From Microvirga lupini (GTDB lineage: Bacteria > Pseudomonadota > Alphaproteobacteria > Rhizobiales > Beijerinckiaceae): a stretch of DNA of 64,000 nt. A program made the position numbers and the translations under genes. The stretch lies in assembly GCF_014191055.1 (NCBI RefSeq), contig NZ_JACHWB010000003.1, positions 744,066-808,065 of the forward strand, written 5' to 3'. Under the pieces are notes generated by a model that was given only the letters and a program-made list of their open reading frames with translations, did no database searches and was not told the origin of the DNA. Each line of letters opens with the position of its first letter. Within the stretch, counting starts at the first letter, position 1. This document shows positions 11,009-41,328 of this stretch, piece by piece.

Positions 11009-12982
11009 TCAATATTCGGGCACGAGTCGATGCGTAACCAGAGGTATGTGGATCTCGCACCGGAGCCCTGCCGGATCGAAACTCAGATGCGCTTTCGCGT
11101 TACATTGGGCCGGCAGAACACGCTCCATGAGAAATGACCCAAAGCCGCTGTGCGCCGGCTTCCCGACAGGAGGGCCATTCTTCTCCACCCATGCGAGGTG
11201 GAGCTCCCTCCGGCCGTGTTCGACTACAAGCTCCCATGTGACGGCTACACACCCCTTGCGCACAGATAGGGCACCGTATTGCGCGGCATTCGCTGTCAGT
11301 TCATGAAAAGCCATGCTCAGCGGGATGGCGAGATCCGCCGAAAGATTCACTTCCGGCCCCTCCAGCCTGAAGCGCTCGTGTCTGCTACCCCAGAAAGGCT
11401 GAAGCTCACATTGCAGCATCTCCCGCAAAGGCGCAGTCTGCCAGTAATCCTCCGTCAGAAGGGTCTGGGTTTTGGCAAGGGCAGCGACCCGCGATGAGAA
11501 GGATCGGTTGAAATCCCGCATGTTGGTTGCCGTACGGGCCGTCGCGCTTGCCAGAGCTTGAACGACCGCGAGGGTGTTGCGCACCCGGTGATGGAGCTCC
11601 CGCACCAGCAATGTTTGGCGTTGCTCGAACCGCTTCCGTTCGTCGATGTCCTGAATGACCCGCACGCTGTATTGAAATTTTCCCTGCTCATTGAAGACTG
11701 CTGTCGATGAGACATTCAGCCAGACACTGGAGCCATCCTTCCGGATCGAGCGCTTCTCCAACGAATAGGTTTTCAGTTCGCCCGCGACCTGTCGTTCGTA
11801 AAGGTCGCGCTCAGCCCCGGAATCATCAGGGTGAATGAGATCGAAGATGTTCAAGCCGAGAAGCTCGCCGCGGGAATAACCGGTGATAGCGGATAGCCCC
11901 CTGTTGACGGTCAGAAGTTTGCCGGCAGCATTTGTTTCAGCGATGCCGACGCCGGCATGCTCATGGGTCGCCCAGAGCCGCTCACGGCTTTCCCGTTCGG
12001 CTCTGGTCTGAACGGCGTTCTCGACGGAGACCGACGCGATCTGGGCGAGTTGGGTGAGGATGGCTTCATCGTCAGCGGTGAAGTCACCATCCTGCTTATC
12101 CAGCAGCATGAGCACGCCCAACGTGCCGCCTTGGGGGCCAATCACCGGAACAGCAAGCACGCTCGGCAGTCCCGGAGAGACTGCTTCTGTGAGCCAGGCA
12201 TCCTGCAGTTCCGGATAAGACTTGAGTTCGGCCCCAGTGAGCCGAAGCGAATGTCCAAGCTGGCCCACATGGGAGTAAATGGCAGCACTGCTCTGCCCCA
12301 GGCTGGATGCAGGATAGTTGCGGTACTTGTCCGAAACCGAGACAATTACGGGCTCACTCGGCCATAAGGCATAGGGAAGCGTATGGATTGCGGCCCAATG
12401 AGCACCGATGATCAGGCGCGCCTGATCCGAGATCTCGTGAAAGATATCTTCGGGGGCATCCGTCGCGGCCATCCGGGTCGTCACTGCCGCCAGGGCTCTC
12501 AACTGCTCCTGGTATCGATGGGCCTTCGCCAGGAGACCTTGTCGCTCCTGCTCGACCAGAATACGGTTGGTGATATCGTGGTGAGCCACCACGGCATAGG
12601 TATGTCCCTCATGCTCAAGCCGCGAAGCACGGAGCTGAAACCACCGCTTCTCTGCAGGGGAATGGCACGGATATTCGAGCGAGAAGTCTGACTGACCCGC
12701 CAGCACAGACCGGATGCCAACAGAAGCGGCCTGCGCACAGGCCGCTTCTACCCCGACGGCGCGATCGCAGATATCGAGGTAGTTCATTCCTATATGTCGA
12801 ATGCCGCTGGCGCTGTTCGCCTGGCCGAAATCACGCCAAGCCTGGTTGACAGCAATAATGGTGCCGGACTGGTCGAGCACGGCCATCGGGCCAGCCAAAG
12901 CATCCAGGACATGCTCGGCAGGCGGAATCGCCACGATCCCGTTCCTCTCCGACGTCCTGTTCATAGGTCTATGTCCCAACAT
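11009..12982 (-). CDS. Soluble HWE-family sensor histidine kinase (PAS-GAF-PAS-kinase)
   Basis: A 657-aa protein without membrane segments, so a cytosolic sensor. It has an N-terminal PAS domain (about 22-145), a GAF domain (about 165-320, ending SVENAVQTRAE), a second PAS with PAC motif (about 335-455), then an HWE/HisKA_2 kinase. The kinase contains HHRVRNTLAVVQALA with the likely phospho-His at about residue 470, and HELTANAAQYGALS. These kinases often work in the general stress response or light sensing, but no response regulator is adjacent, so the partner is unknown. ATG 12964 (MNRTSERNG) is an alternative start; neither has a strong ribosome-binding site. Confidence 0.9.
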   Translation of the reverse strand: MLGHRPMNRTSERNGIVAIPPAEHVLDALAGPMAVLDQSGTIIAVNQAWRDFGQANSASGIRHIGMNYLDICDRAVGVEAACAQAASVGIRSVLAGQSDFSLEYPCHSPAEKRWFQLRASRLEHEGHTYAVVAHHDITNRILVEQERQGLLAKAHRYQEQLRALAAVTTRMAATDAPEDIFHEISDQARLIIGAHWAAIHTLPYALWPSEPVIVSVSDKYRNYPASSLGQSSAAIYSHVGQLGHSLRLTGAELKSYPELQDAWLTEAVSPGLPSVLAVPVIGPQGGTLGVLMLLDKQDGDFTADDEAILTQLAQIASVSVENAVQTRAERESRERLWATHEHAGVGIAETNAAGKLLTVNRGLSAITGYSRGELLGLNIFDLIHPDDSGAERDLYERQVAGELKTYSLEKRSIRKDGSSVWLNVSSTAVFNEQGKFQYSVRVIQDIDERKRFEQRQTLLVRELHHRVRNTLAVVQALASATARTATNMRDFNRSFSSRVAALAKTQTLLTEDYWQTAPLREMLQCELQPFWGSRHERFRLEGPEVNLSADLAIPLSMAFHELTANAAQYGALSVRKGCVAVTWELVVEHGRRELHLAWVEKNGPPVGKPAHSGFGSFLMERVLPAQCNAKAHLSFDPAGLRCEIHIPLVTHRLVPEY

Positions 12983-37514: not shown

Positions 37515-37604
37515 GGAAGGGTGGCCGAGTGGTTTAAGGCAGCGGTCTTGAAAACCGCCGTGGGTGCAAGCCCACCGTGGGTTCGAATCCCACCCCTTCC
37601 GCCA
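37515..37604 (+). tRNA. tRNA-Ser (anticodon UGA)
   Basis: Ninety nucleotides fold as a class II tRNA. The acceptor arms GGAAGGG and CCCTTCC pair, the D-arm contains GGCCGAGTGGTTTAAGGC, and the anticodon arm is CGGTCTTGAAAACCG with TGA at 37549-37551. A long variable arm (GTGGGTGCAAGCCCAC) and the T-arm GTGGGTTCGAATCCCAC follow. The 3' CCA is encoded. It decodes UCA serine codons. Confidence 0.97.
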
Positions 37605-37675: not shown

Positions 37676-38770
37676 CTACGCGACTGGGGCATCGACCTCG
37701 CACACAACCCCTGTCGGCGCGAAAGCGATCTCCACCTGACCGTCGAGGTCTTGCGCCAGGCTGCGCTCGATGAGACGCGAGCCGAAGCCGCGGCGAGACG
37801 GCGCCTTCACGGACGGACCGCCGCTTTCCGTCCAGCGCAGGCGCAGCCGGGGCGGCGCTGCCCCGTTCTGCACCGTCCACGACACATCAACGATGCCGAC
37901 CTTGTTGGACAAAGCCCCATACTTGACCGCGTTGGTGGCCAGTTCATGCAATGCCATGGCAAGGGCTAAAGACATGCGTGGCGTGAGCCGCACATGCGGC
38001 CCGGCAATGTGCAGCCGGTTTTCGTTCGAGGTCTGGTATGGCTCGAGCGCTCGCGTGACGACCTCGACCAGGTCGGCCCCCTCCCAGCTCTCGCGGGTGA
38101 GCACATCGTGCGCTCGTGACAGGGCAAGCAGCCGCATCTGAACCGCCTCTTTCGCATCCTCCGAGGCAGCATTCGTGCGCAGGGTTTGCGTCACGATGGA
38201 CTGTACGGTGGCCAGAGTGTTCTTCACGCGGTGGTTCAGTTCGCCAATGAGCAACTGCTGGTGCTCGGCGGCGCGCTTGGCCTGGTCAAGCGCGGCCGTC
38301 AGACGCTTTTCCGCCGTGTGCATTTCGGTCAGGCGAGCCCGGGCCTCGTATTGCCGCTCCCGCCCGCGCAGGGCCGTGCGGGCCACGCTGACCAGGGTTC
38401 CGGCGTGGAAGGGGCGTTCCAGGAAGGTCACTTTGCCCAGGATCTCGGTCAGACGCGCCAAGGCAGGATTGCGCTCGACCCCGCCGCCCCGCTGGGTCAG
38501 CAGCACGAAGGCAAAGTCAGACCAGGGAGGCTGGTCCGCCAGCCAGCGGGACAGATCGCTCAAGTCGGCAGTGCGGAGAGCCTCGTCCGTGATGAGCGCA
38601 AAGCCAGCCCCTCTTTCAAGCTCCTGGACCAAAGCCAGCAGGTTCGGGCAGACCTCAGCGATGATCCCGACCGTGTGCAGAATGTCGGCAGCGACAGCGG
38701 CATCCCGCCCGTGCGGCGCCAGGATGACGGCTCGCATTGCGTGGGGATGGGACAAGGCATCAATGCTCAT
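37676..38770 (-). CDS. HWE-family histidine kinase with degenerate receiver-like N-terminus
   Basis: A 364-aa cytosolic protein. Residues 12-130 look like a receiver fold (MRAVILAPHGRDA, FALITDEAL, FVLLTQRGG, KVTFLERPFHAGTLVSVA). Asp62 stands near the phospho-Asp position, but the Lys normally preceding the Pro is replaced by Arg119, so phosphorylation is doubtful. After a coiled-coil linker (about 135-170) comes an HWE kinase: GELNHRVKNTLATVQSIVTQ with phospho-His180, HELATNAVKYGALS, and WTESGGP. Its ATG overlaps the KaiC-like stop by 4 nt, so the two proteins are made together. No response regulator lies nearby. Confidence 0.9.
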   Translation of the reverse strand: MSIDALSHPHAMRAVILAPHGRDAAVAADILHTVGIIAEVCPNLLALVQELERGAGFALITDEALRTADLSDLSRWLADQPPWSDFAFVLLTQRGGGVERNPALARLTEILGKVTFLERPFHAGTLVSVARTALRGRERQYEARARLTEMHTAEKRLTAALDQAKRAAEHQQLLIGELNHRVKNTLATVQSIVTQTLRTNAASEDAKEAVQMRLLALSRAHDVLTRESWEGADLVEVVTRALEPYQTSNENRLHIAGPHVRLTPRMSLALAMALHELATNAVKYGALSNKVGIVDVSWTVQNGAAPPRLRLRWTESGGPSVKAPSRRGFGSRLIERSLAQDLDGQVEIAFAPTGVVCEVDAPVA

Positions 38771-40263
38771 CGGTCTTCCAGCAGAGAGGCGCGATCCTCG
38801 GCGGCCATCACCGGCACACCGCGCAAGATTCCCTGGAAGCCCCTGAGCGGCTCGCCGACAGCAATCCCGCTGCTGTCGACCCGGATCTCGCGGATGGTGT
38901 TCTCATGCGAGCCGAACCGCTTCTTGACGACGGACAGGGCCCGCCGCACCTGCCCGAAGGCCTCGAAGTAGCGCAGCAGGATCACCGTATCGGCCAGATA
39001 GGTCACATCGACTGGAGCCTTCATGTCGCCGACAAGGCCATGCTGGGCGACGAGTAGGAACGTCGAGGCACCCTGCCGGTTCAGGTATTGCAGCAGCTCA
39101 TGCATGTGCAGCACCAGAAACTGCTCCTCCGGCATGGCCGCCTGATAGCCGTTGAGGCTGTCGATCACGACGGTCTTGACGCCATGACTATCAACCCTGG
39201 TACGCACTTTGTGCGTAAACTCACCCGGCGAGAGTTCGGCAGCGTCGACCTGCTCGATGAACAGGTTTCCGGCCGCGCACAGCGTCTCCAGGTCAATGCC
39301 CATCAGCCGGGTGCGGTCGAGTAGCAGGCCGAGCTCCTCGTCGAAGACGAACAAGGCCGCCTTTTCACCCCGCTGAACGGCGGAAACCGCGAACTGAACC
39401 GCGAGAAGCGACTTGCCGGTGCCAGCCGGCCCCATCACCAGGGTGCTAGAGCCCTGCTCGATGCCCCCGCCCAGCAGAGCATCGAGTTCCCGGATCCCGC
39501 TGGCCAGCACGGTGCGGGCAAAGCCGGTCTTGTGCTCGCTGGAGATCAGGCGCGGGAACACCTGGACCCCACCCTCGGCAATGATGAAGTCGTGAAAGCC
39601 ACCCCGGAAGCTCTGGCCGCGGTACTTGATCACCCGCAAGCGGCGGCGCTCAGCGCCATAGGTCGGGGTCATCTCCTCCAACCGGATCACTCCATGGGCG
39701 ATGCTGTGCACGGTCTTATCGTTGGTGTCGGTGGTCAGGTCATCCAGCATCAGGACGGTGGCCCCCTGCTGGGCGAAGTAGTGCTTCATCGCCAGGATCT
39801 GGCGGCGATAGCGCAGGGAGCTTTGGGCCAGCAGGCGGATCTCGGACAGGCTGTCGAGGACGATCCGCACCGGCTTGGCCCGGTCGATGGCCTCGAATAC
39901 CGCCTTGGTGGTCTCGCCGAGTTCCAAGTCGGAGGAGTAGAGCAGGCTCTGCTGGTGTTCCTCGTCGAGCAGGCTCTCGGGCGGCACGAGCTCGAACACA
40001 TGGATGGCATCGTCCAAGGACCAGCCGTGGGAGGCTGCCCCCTCGCGCAGCTCGCGCTCGGTCTCCGACATGGTGATGTAGAGGCCTGTCTCGCCCGCCT
40101 TGGCGCCTTCCAGCAGGAACTGGAGCGCGATGGTGGTCTTGCCGGTGCCGGGGCTGCCCTCCAGGAGGTAGACATGGCCGGGAGCAAGCCCCCCGACGAG
40201 AATGTCATCGAGCCCTTCTACCCCGGTCTGCGCTTTGGGGAGGGGCTTGGATTGTGAGGTCAT
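38767..40263 (-). CDS. kaiC: KaiC-like double RecA-domain ATPase
   Basis: A 498-aa protein with two KaiC/RecA domains. CI has Walker A EGSPGTGKT (35-43) and Walker B VRIVLDSLSE (about 132-141). CII has GPAGTGKS (278-285) and TVVIDSL (364-370). The paired catalytic glutamates are intact in CII (Glu309-Glu310), while CI reads Ser66-Glu67. By eye alignment the cyanobacterial Ser431/Thr432 phosphosites correspond to Thr421-Tyr422 in VTYLADTVILLRYFE, a pattern I associate with non-cyanobacterial KaiC-like proteins. No kaiA or kaiB is in the window. ATG 40263 lies inside the end of the HigA-like gene (59-nt overlap). Confidence 0.9.
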   Translation of the reverse strand: MTSQSKPLPKAQTGVEGLDDILVGGLAPGHVYLLEGSPGTGKTTIALQFLLEGAKAGETGLYITMSETERELREGAASHGWSLDDAIHVFELVPPESLLDEEHQQSLLYSSDLELGETTKAVFEAIDRAKPVRIVLDSLSEIRLLAQSSLRYRRQILAMKHYFAQQGATVLMLDDLTTDTNDKTVHSIAHGVIRLEEMTPTYGAERRRLRVIKYRGQSFRGGFHDFIIAEGGVQVFPRLISSEHKTGFARTVLASGIRELDALLGGGIEQGSSTLVMGPAGTGKSLLAVQFAVSAVQRGEKAALFVFDEELGLLLDRTRLMGIDLETLCAAGNLFIEQVDAAELSPGEFTHKVRTRVDSHGVKTVVIDSLNGYQAAMPEEQFLVLHMHELLQYLNRQGASTFLLVAQHGLVGDMKAPVDVTYLADTVILLRYFEAFGQVRRALSVVKKRFGSHENTIREIRVDSSGIAVGEPLRGFQGILRGVPVMAAEDRASLLEDR

Positions 40264-40603
40264 GCAACAGTCCAATCTCGGCCTGAACGGCCGGAGGCAG
40301 AATGTGGGGCGGGATCAGCGTCAACACCCCGGCCAGCGCCTGCTCGGCGTGCCAGAGATCATAGCGCTGCTGGAGATCGAGCCAGAACTGCGGGGTAGTT
40401 CCCGACAGGCGGGCCAGGCGGGCGGCCATCTCGGGGCTGACCGCCGCCGTGCCGGCGAGAACGCGGTGGAGGGTCTGCCGAGCGATGCGAAGATCGCGGG
40501 CGGCCTGGCTCACGGAAAGGCCGAGGCCAGGCAGCACCTGATCGCGCAGCATCGCACCGGGATGGAGCGGGGCCTGAGGGCAGGCATCGTGCGTGGAAGC
40601 CAT
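40205..40603 (-). CDS. HigA-like XRE-family DNA-binding protein (no toxin partner)
   Basis: A 132-aa protein from ATG 40603. The HigA-family core is clear: HPGAMLRDQVLPGLGLSVSQ (LHPGEhL-like), then the helix-turn-helix QAARDLRIARQTLHRVLAG, then SPEMAARLARLSGTTPQFWLDLQQRYDLW, a very typical HigA segment. HigA normally follows a HigB toxin gene; the 170 bases upstream show no HigB-like protein in any frame. The frame is open for 57 more codons upstream, but these look non-coding. The gene runs 59 nt into kaiC, so it probably acts as a regulator of, or is coexpressed with, the kaiC-kinase pair. Confidence 0.85.
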   Translation of the reverse strand: MASTHDACPQAPLHPGAMLRDQVLPGLGLSVSQAARDLRIARQTLHRVLAGTAAVSPEMAARLARLSGTTPQFWLDLQQRYDLWHAEQALAGVLTLIPPHILPPAVQAEIGLLHDLTIQAPPQSADRGRRAR

Positions 40604-41328
40604 GATCCTGCTTTCGGTAAATCTGACTGTAGCGTTATGGATGACAGTGTCCGGAAAACAAGAGGTGGCCGTGCTCGGCTGGGCAGTTTCCTGGGAATGC
40701 AGGTGCCGCAGGCCTCTAAGGGCAGGTTCGAATGGCTGGACCTGAAGTGGGCATGCCAGGCTGATCGGCGGCATGCCGCCAAGGGGGCGCTGTAAAATGC
40801 CAGCTCCGGGTCAAAATTTCACGTTCCGACGGCTTCACGAGCGTTGGTACTTGAGTGCCCCAAGCGCTTACGTCTCAGGTGCGCTGCCATCGTACAAAGC
40901 TGCAGAGAGCTGTGGCTCAGGGCGGCCCGCTTAGACACACATTAAGGTTTAAGGTCAAACGCGAGTGGATCAGAACGCTTCTCGCAGGTGAAGTTCTCGA
41001 CGCAGTTATGAACTCCGGAGCCATTGTACTTCGCTATGACGGATAGAGGCAGGCCGGCATGCTCCGCAGTCGCTGAGCGTGTTCGTTTCGATGTTATAGG
41101 CCGTCGCTGTACCGGGCGAAGACTGATCTTTCTCGACCCAGCTTTCCACGAGGGTAAGCGTTTCCAGCTGAGGAAGCTGCTCCCCAGAATCGGGACCTGA
41201 ACGGGCTGAACTCTGCGTTCGTCGCTACGATCAACTTCTCCTTGCTGAGCTTTGTGCCATCTGCATACATTGCACAATGCCCTGACGCTGAATCAGCTCA
41301 GTCTCCTGAGAGGTAGGAAAGCCAACCG
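40604..41328. other. 725-base stretch without a recognised gene
   Basis: The stretch separates the HigA-KaiC module from the hydantoinase-like operon, and both operon promoters must lie in it. A perfect 14-bp palindrome, GGCGGCATGCCGCC, is at 40767-40780. On the minus strand between about 41280 and 41040, short protein-like segments occur in different frames (MYADGTKLSKEKLIVATN, then GEQLPQLETLTLVESWVEKD), which may be a decayed gene, but no intact frame joins them. GAGAGGTAGG at the right end serves the GTG start at 41329. Confidence 0.4.

Follow-up and report, generated by a model that had tools for sequence, protein, structure and literature searches.

A HigA-type regulator without a toxin ahead of a KaiC-histidine kinase operon in Microvirga lupini, and its predicted operator

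In the cyanobacterial KaiABC system with SasA and CikA, KaiC is coupled to kinases via adaptor domains, and both CikA and KaiA possess pseudo-receivers. In archaea, KaiC-like ATPases have reportedly been proposed as signalling hubs by Makarova et al. in 2017. Here we describe a module of three leftward genes, encoding a HigA-type regulator, a KaiC-like ATPase and a histidine kinase with a receiver-like N-terminal domain, in a 64,000-nucleotide stretch of the Microvirga lupini genome (referred to below as the window). Judged from conserved DNA and protein sequences, this toxin-less HigA probably represses its own promoter and would thereby set the level of a relay of KaiC and a pseudoreceiver kinase, which is not a KaiABC clock. 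The closest described relatives of the KaiC-kinase pair were reported in a survey that we take to be the work of De Luca et al.

According to the accessible portion of that survey (PMC3164672, published in 2011), kaiC genes with SY, TY or SF sites make up a group in which the next gene systematically encodes a kinase that bears a specific receiver-like N-domain, and which is not accompanied by kaiB; co-transcription of kaiC and kinase was shown in Ramlibacter, and an interaction of the two proteins and a possible hourglass were proposed. The window pair resembles the "second kaiC-context" of Ramlibacter tataouinensis (Rta_04330/Rta_04340) described there, in which a kaiC with a TY phosphosite immediately precedes the gene for a kinase whose receiver-like N-domain is conserved, both in one operon of a genome without kaiB. 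It differs by its HigA and operator, neither of which is mentioned in that portion of the source, and by a kinase of the HWE type. The window pair fits this group by the features tested.

The KaiC-KaiB-PAS/histidine kinase operons of Rhodopseudomonas and Rhodobacter likewise combine a two-domain KaiC with a histidine kinase but, as far as the excerpts available of PMC4794148 and PMC10076222 go, they encode KaiB as well, their KaiC extends further at the C-terminus, and their phosphosites are of another type (in R. palustris, TSS). In comparison with cyanobacterial KaiABC, no KaiB was found here, the phosphosites and the interaction loop differ, and the part of the adaptor is taken by a receiver-like domain, to which kinases of the HWE or HisKA type are fused. 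With HigBA type II toxin-antitoxin modules the locus shares a TIGR02607 HigA and a TGT-N13-ACA motif upstream of the operon; unlike these, it has no higB, starts with higA, encodes a C-terminal extension of HigA, and continues into KaiC and kinase genes. A HigA head, operator and extension of a KaiC-kinase operon were not found in those parts of the open-access literature that were searched. The KaiC-kinase pair is of a known type; the captured HigA switch ahead of it appears to be new.

The module and its upstream element

The module resides on contig C3 of the 4.95-Mb host genome, and its closest named relatives, as judged by KaiC (92% identity), are found in Microvirga. Its features are the following.

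37676-38770, minus strand: histidine kinase, 364 amino acids, with a receiver-like N-domain, an HWE core (residues 177-259) and an ATPase part
38276-38770, minus strand: part coding for the receiver-like N-domain and a long exit helix (kinase residues 1-165)
38767-40263, minus strand: two-domain KaiC-like ATPase, 498 amino acids; Thr421-Tyr422 align with Ser431-Thr432
40205-40603, minus strand: HigA-type (TIGR02607) XRE-family regulator, 132 amino acids; C-terminal extension at about residues 98-132; no neighbouring higB
40627-40647, minus strand: predicted HigA operator CTGT-N13-ACAG, ending 23 nucleotides (nt) ahead of the higA ATG
40634-40662, minus strand: predicted candidate promoter consisting of CTTGTT (40657-40662), 17 nt and CATAAC (40634-40639), overlapping the operator

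In family profile searches, HigA scored 95.7 bits against TIGR02607 (cut-off 47.7), KaiC 257 bits against the KaiC ATPase family PF06745, and the kinase 105.2 bits against HWE_HK (PF07536; cut-off 22.8). The coordinates confirm the tight coupling of the reading frames that an earlier note on this DNA had described: HigA and KaiC overlap by 59 nt (40205-40263), and KaiC and the kinase by 4 nt (38767-38770, ATGA). KaiC is read here from the ATG at 40263; an in-frame TTG further upstream would yield a protein of 502 amino acids. A tRNA-Ser gene (37515-37604, plus strand) faces the 3' end of the module.

The same gene order, for which the earlier note had proposed a search, was found in relatives. 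The named loci are the best 80 of 510 confirmed ones, and all 18 Microvirga loci among them have the order HigA-KaiC-kinase. One Methylobacterium locus also carries HigA ahead of KaiC, and no HigA match was obtained for the remaining 61 of the best 80, most of which are from Pseudomonas and Bradyrhizobium; the kinase N-domain was matched behind KaiC in 79 of the 80, the exception being L099, which has a short downstream frame. A set of 48 congeneric genomes yielded 27 HigA copies (E-values up to 1e-20), spread over 22 of the genomes, and each copy precedes a KaiC with an identity of 83% or more; no HigA was found with the KaiCs of 76% (G332) or at most 60% identity in these genomes. It should be noted that the named loci and the 48-genome set probably overlap, so that the counts are not independent. 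A chance juxtaposition of HigA and KaiC was rejected by the 27/27 linkage. Among 111 genomes around Methylobacterium gregans, 14 have a HigA match, and 5 of the 16 matches precede KaiC. The 4-nt overlap of KaiC and kinase was seen in 70 of the 80 loci, with start codons chosen by script, and the HigA/KaiC overlap measures 11 nt in 15 of the 18 Microvirga loci and 4, 29 and 59 nt once each; the 59-nt overlap was therefore rejected as a conserved device.

Twenty aligned upstream copies have little in common except for a stretch beside higA, where, in the part of the alignment viewed, CTTGNN-N17-CATAAC and CTGTCRCCCATAACGCTACA are nearly invariant; the spacing of the candidate promoter is fixed in all 20, and CTTG is present in 19. 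The 20-mer CTGTNNCCCATAACGCTACA, searched with up to two mismatches in the 48 congeneric genomes, gave 33 matches, as compared with five for the reversed pattern. Twenty-seven of the 33 sit 25-45 nt ahead of the aligned starts of the 27 HigAs; 26 of these have no or one mismatch and one has two, and the six other matches all have two. Within the M. lupini genome itself, only the two copies of the module match. Modules of the Methylobacterium group carry CTGT-N13-ACAG upstream of HigA in five of five cases, with a different inner sequence.

The arms of this dyad also occur ahead of HigA genes that have no KaiC nearby: TGT-N13-ACA is present in 23 of 40 non-redundant loci of this type within the 220 nt searched (-460 to -240 of higA), against a mean of 1.3 and a maximum of 6 in 200 shuffles, at most 7 for other spacings, and 1 of 40 in a control region. 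The 40 loci derive from 41 (29 with loci among 42 non-own HigA matches, 11 non-KaiC loci from the M. gregans area, and the own-genome locus L011) minus the near-identical L214. HigB (PF05015) stands directly ahead of higA in all of the 20 motif-bearing loci covered by this check (L217, L218, L220 and the motif-less loci lie outside it), and the motif thus heads higBA operons. When 1,792 triplet dyads were scanned independently of the module, TGT-N13-ACA came first; the next dyads by excess are the concentric GTA-N11 and TAA-N9, which give the outline TGTAAG-N7-CTTACA. When scored with a matrix from the 30 sites of these loci, the window element reaches 14.7 bits and ranks first among 63,982 positions (runner-up, 8.2), the element of the paralogous module 17.1 bits, and the Methylobacterium elements 9.7-14.2 bits. 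Six ordinary higBA loci (L101, L105, L110, L114, L117, L123) have two TGT-N13-ACA sites, 21-26 base pairs apart, ahead of higB.

Repression of its own promoter has been described for HigA2 of Acinetobacter in the excerpt available of PMC5906591; the HigA of P. aeruginosa binds TTAAC-GTTAA palindromes, which are unlike the motif found here (PMC6987408, likewise an excerpt). The earlier note had suggested that HigA autoregulates the set and had named bases 40604-40800 as its possible target, and the presence of a higBA-type element at 40627-40647, inside this region, argues for such a predicted autoregulation.

KaiC, its kinase partner and the clock question

The window KaiC possesses both P-loops. 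In an alignment with structurally solved KaiC proteins, the glutamate pair of CI corresponds to Ser-Glu and that of CII to Asp-Glu, and neither varies among 98 of 98 relatives. The positions of Ser431-Thr432 are occupied by Thr-Tyr in the window protein and in 98 of 98 aligned relatives, and the region that we take to correspond to the KaiB-binding loop has a different conserved sequence in 98 of 98. Compared with the cyanobacterial KaiC of 519 residues, the chain stops about 11 residues earlier. As the earlier note had stated, the module has no kaiB, and a distant copy was not found either: KaiB (PF07689) gave no match in the own genome; KaiA, known from cyanobacteria only according to the part available of PMC11832031, was not searched for. 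Among related genomes (33 chosen, 32 searched), a single one, that of M. gregans, gave a KaiB match. On its contig C53 there are two neighbouring KaiB-family matches (L130, L131), the second inside an open frame of 621 amino acids, and the same organism has a HigA-KaiC module on a separate contig (C196).

A KaiABC-type clock was rejected for the window module because no KaiB was found and the phosphosites are Thr-Tyr instead of the Ser431-Thr432 pair; on these sequence grounds, a clock is not supported. A simpler timing device can be envisioned, in which KaiC without KaiB would act as an hourglass, the kinase would read the phosphorylation state of KaiC, and HigA would belong to the feedback. 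Thr-Tyr is phosphorylatable in principle, an hourglass has been suggested for the KaiC group that includes the TY type (PMC3164672), and KaiA-less KaiBC hourglasses exist (PMC10076222, PMC4794148), as the portions at hand of these papers indicate. This explanation has to contend with the Tyr at the second phosphosite and the replaced KaiB-loop region throughout the 98 relatives, with the shorter chain, and with the failure to find KaiB in the own genome or in 31 of the 32 relatives searched. We consider it improbable, and the timing function envisaged in the earlier note is not upheld.

The N-domain of the kinase was modelled as a receiver fold (predicted structure), but the phosphoacceptor Asp, acidic pair and Lys of receivers are poorly conserved in it. 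Among 43 rows (40 of the 80 loci plus the three own copies; set A2, with L027 left out for a misassigned start), the Asp position holds D, E, A or S, the acidic-pair position is a near-invariant Ala-Pro, and Arg119 is invariant in the place of Lys; the window domain retains D62 at the Asp position. Within the genus, this domain follows KaiC in 57 of 57 matches, and the kinase behind it varies. The gating of the kinase by KaiC, proposed in the earlier note, is plausible on the basis of this gene linkage, and PMC3164672 had already put it forward for pairs of this kind. At L224:1919-3761 of genome G366, KaiC has one domain only (about 270 amino acids, 43% identity) and precedes a receiver-like domain and an HWE kinase. 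Another HWE kinase core of the window (11039-11662, minus strand; C3:755104-755727; 38% identity) belongs to a set of 23 matches in the genome, of which three are weak.

KaiCs that are 71-75% identical to that of the window occur in Pseudomonas, for instance at L039 and L055, and are followed there by this receiver-like domain of the kinase as well, which suggests an old horizontal transfer between alpha- and gammaproteobacteria.

HigA with and without KaiC

HigA is under purifying selection, with ratios of non-synonymous to synonymous substitutions (dN/dS) of 0.07-0.19 against the window copy; over 19 copies, a set without L024, pN/pS amounts to 0.13 for the core and 0.30 for the tail. HigAs without KaiC stop at 97-106 residues (41 of 41), and those linked to KaiC reach at least 114. 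The extension of the latter carries a common I-P-x-H/Y-x-L-P-x-A stretch; L024 has it in degenerate form, and L210, where the frame runs on, has lost it. A predicted structure of HigA has an intact fold and a short helix (104-110) in the extension. The idea that the tail is kept merely via the overlap with kaiC was rejected, since the usual Microvirga overlap of 11 nt lies 3' of the conserved stretch; it is also countered by the presence of this stretch in Methylobacterium-group modules, in which the HigA and KaiC matches do not overlap. In a tree of 20 of the 25 KaiC-linked and 19 of the 41 other HigAs (set A3), the former are one group nested among toxin-linked HigAs (support 84/96).

Could HigA be a mere passenger, that is, a stray antitoxin retained by its overlap with kaiC, with the element serving as a kaiC promoter only? 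The two genes do overlap in Microvirga, the fixed spacing of CTTGNN-N17-CATAAC suggests contacts with RNA polymerase, and the copy in L024 is divergent. However, elements with no or one mismatch stand only ahead of HigA modules (26 of 26 in the 48 genomes), the Methylobacterium modules retain the arms and not the inner Microvirga sequence, higBA operons are preceded by the same dyad, the HigA core has a pN/pS of 0.13, and the HigA-less KaiC pairs inspected (L007, L228) are without the element. These observations make a passenger role unlikely.

That HigA is still the active antitoxin of a HigB encoded elsewhere, coupling the operon to toxin control, is the least probable explanation: its modelled fold is intact and the genome does have a higB, but, consistent with the earlier note, none lies beside the module, and the sole HigB (PF05015) match of the genome, on C1, precedes its own HigA, which is just 32% identical to that of the window.

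The three-gene set described in the earlier note is real but is not the only one in the genome: a second full copy is present at C3:239749-242673 (86, 92 and 91% protein identity for HigA, KaiC and kinase), and C6 carries KaiC and kinase a third time (58 and 47% identity), without HigA. Both module HigAs carry the recognition region RQTLHRVLAG and have nearly identical operators, so that cross-regulation of the two modules would be expected. The second copy (L006:6747-12152) adjoins a divergent gene of the trehalose-6-phosphate-synthase type (PF00982, L006:10327-11805), and a single-domain response regulator about 4 kb off its 3' side (L006:2191-2583, minus strand) could be a phosphotransfer partner. 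The C6 pair (L007:7470-11069), which also lacks the element, has a divergent Crp-type regulator gene (PF13545) upstream. In Microvirga guangxiensis (L024:5660-10256), the module looks decayed, with a divergent HigA, an altered operator arm and a kinase split over two frames.

A proposed autorepressor switch

We suggest that the captured HigA, without HigB, would bind CTGT-N13-ACAG at 40627-40647 over the promoter, and that this repression of its own operon would set the amounts of KaiC and kinase, as conserved features of DNA and protein indicate. KaiC, by homology an ATPase forming hexamers, may control the kinase of the next gene through the receiver-like N-domain, a step suggested by gene linkage, and the kinase would, from what is known of its family, pass phosphate to a response regulator encoded elsewhere.

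Several observations weigh against this proposal. A strict sigma-70 scan gave no promoter site, and 17 of the 40 HigA loci without KaiC have no motif in the stretch searched. The matrix sites were gathered by TGT/ACA arms first noticed in the modules, a bias from which the dyad scan is free. The support for a single KaiC-linked HigA clade is not decisive, and HigA-bearing KaiCs do not form one group on the KaiC tree (which kept 10 of 48 Pseudomonas rows), where two changes are needed for the presence of HigA; a single capture of HigA may have been followed by its loss or transfer. No KaiC lies upstream of 2 of the 63 receiver-like domains (L222, L223), and the three hybrid kinases (L024, L028, L030) have N-domains of greater divergence (57-61% identity versus 67-88% in the HWE copies of set A2), which makes replacement of the whole kinase gene just as likely as an exchange of its core.

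A bolder version of the autorepressor proposal, which we put forward tentatively and hold to be doubtful, is that KaiC or the kinase has replaced the toxin as the partner of HigA: the extension would bind the KaiC-kinase complex, and operator occupancy would follow the nucleotide or partner state of KaiC. If true, this would be an antitoxin-style feedback loop that senses an ATPase signalling hub and not a toxin.

The locus seems to offer a clear example of an antitoxin repressor that has parted from its toxin but retained the architecture of its operator, and that now stands as a fixed transcriptional element at the head of an operon for signalling; the predicted operator provides a precise DNA site for testing. 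The possible role of KaiB-less proteobacterial KaiC proteins is sharpened as well: their constant partner is the receiver-like domain, and the kinase that follows can be exchanged. This suggests that KaiC serves two-component signalling as an input module and not as a clock.

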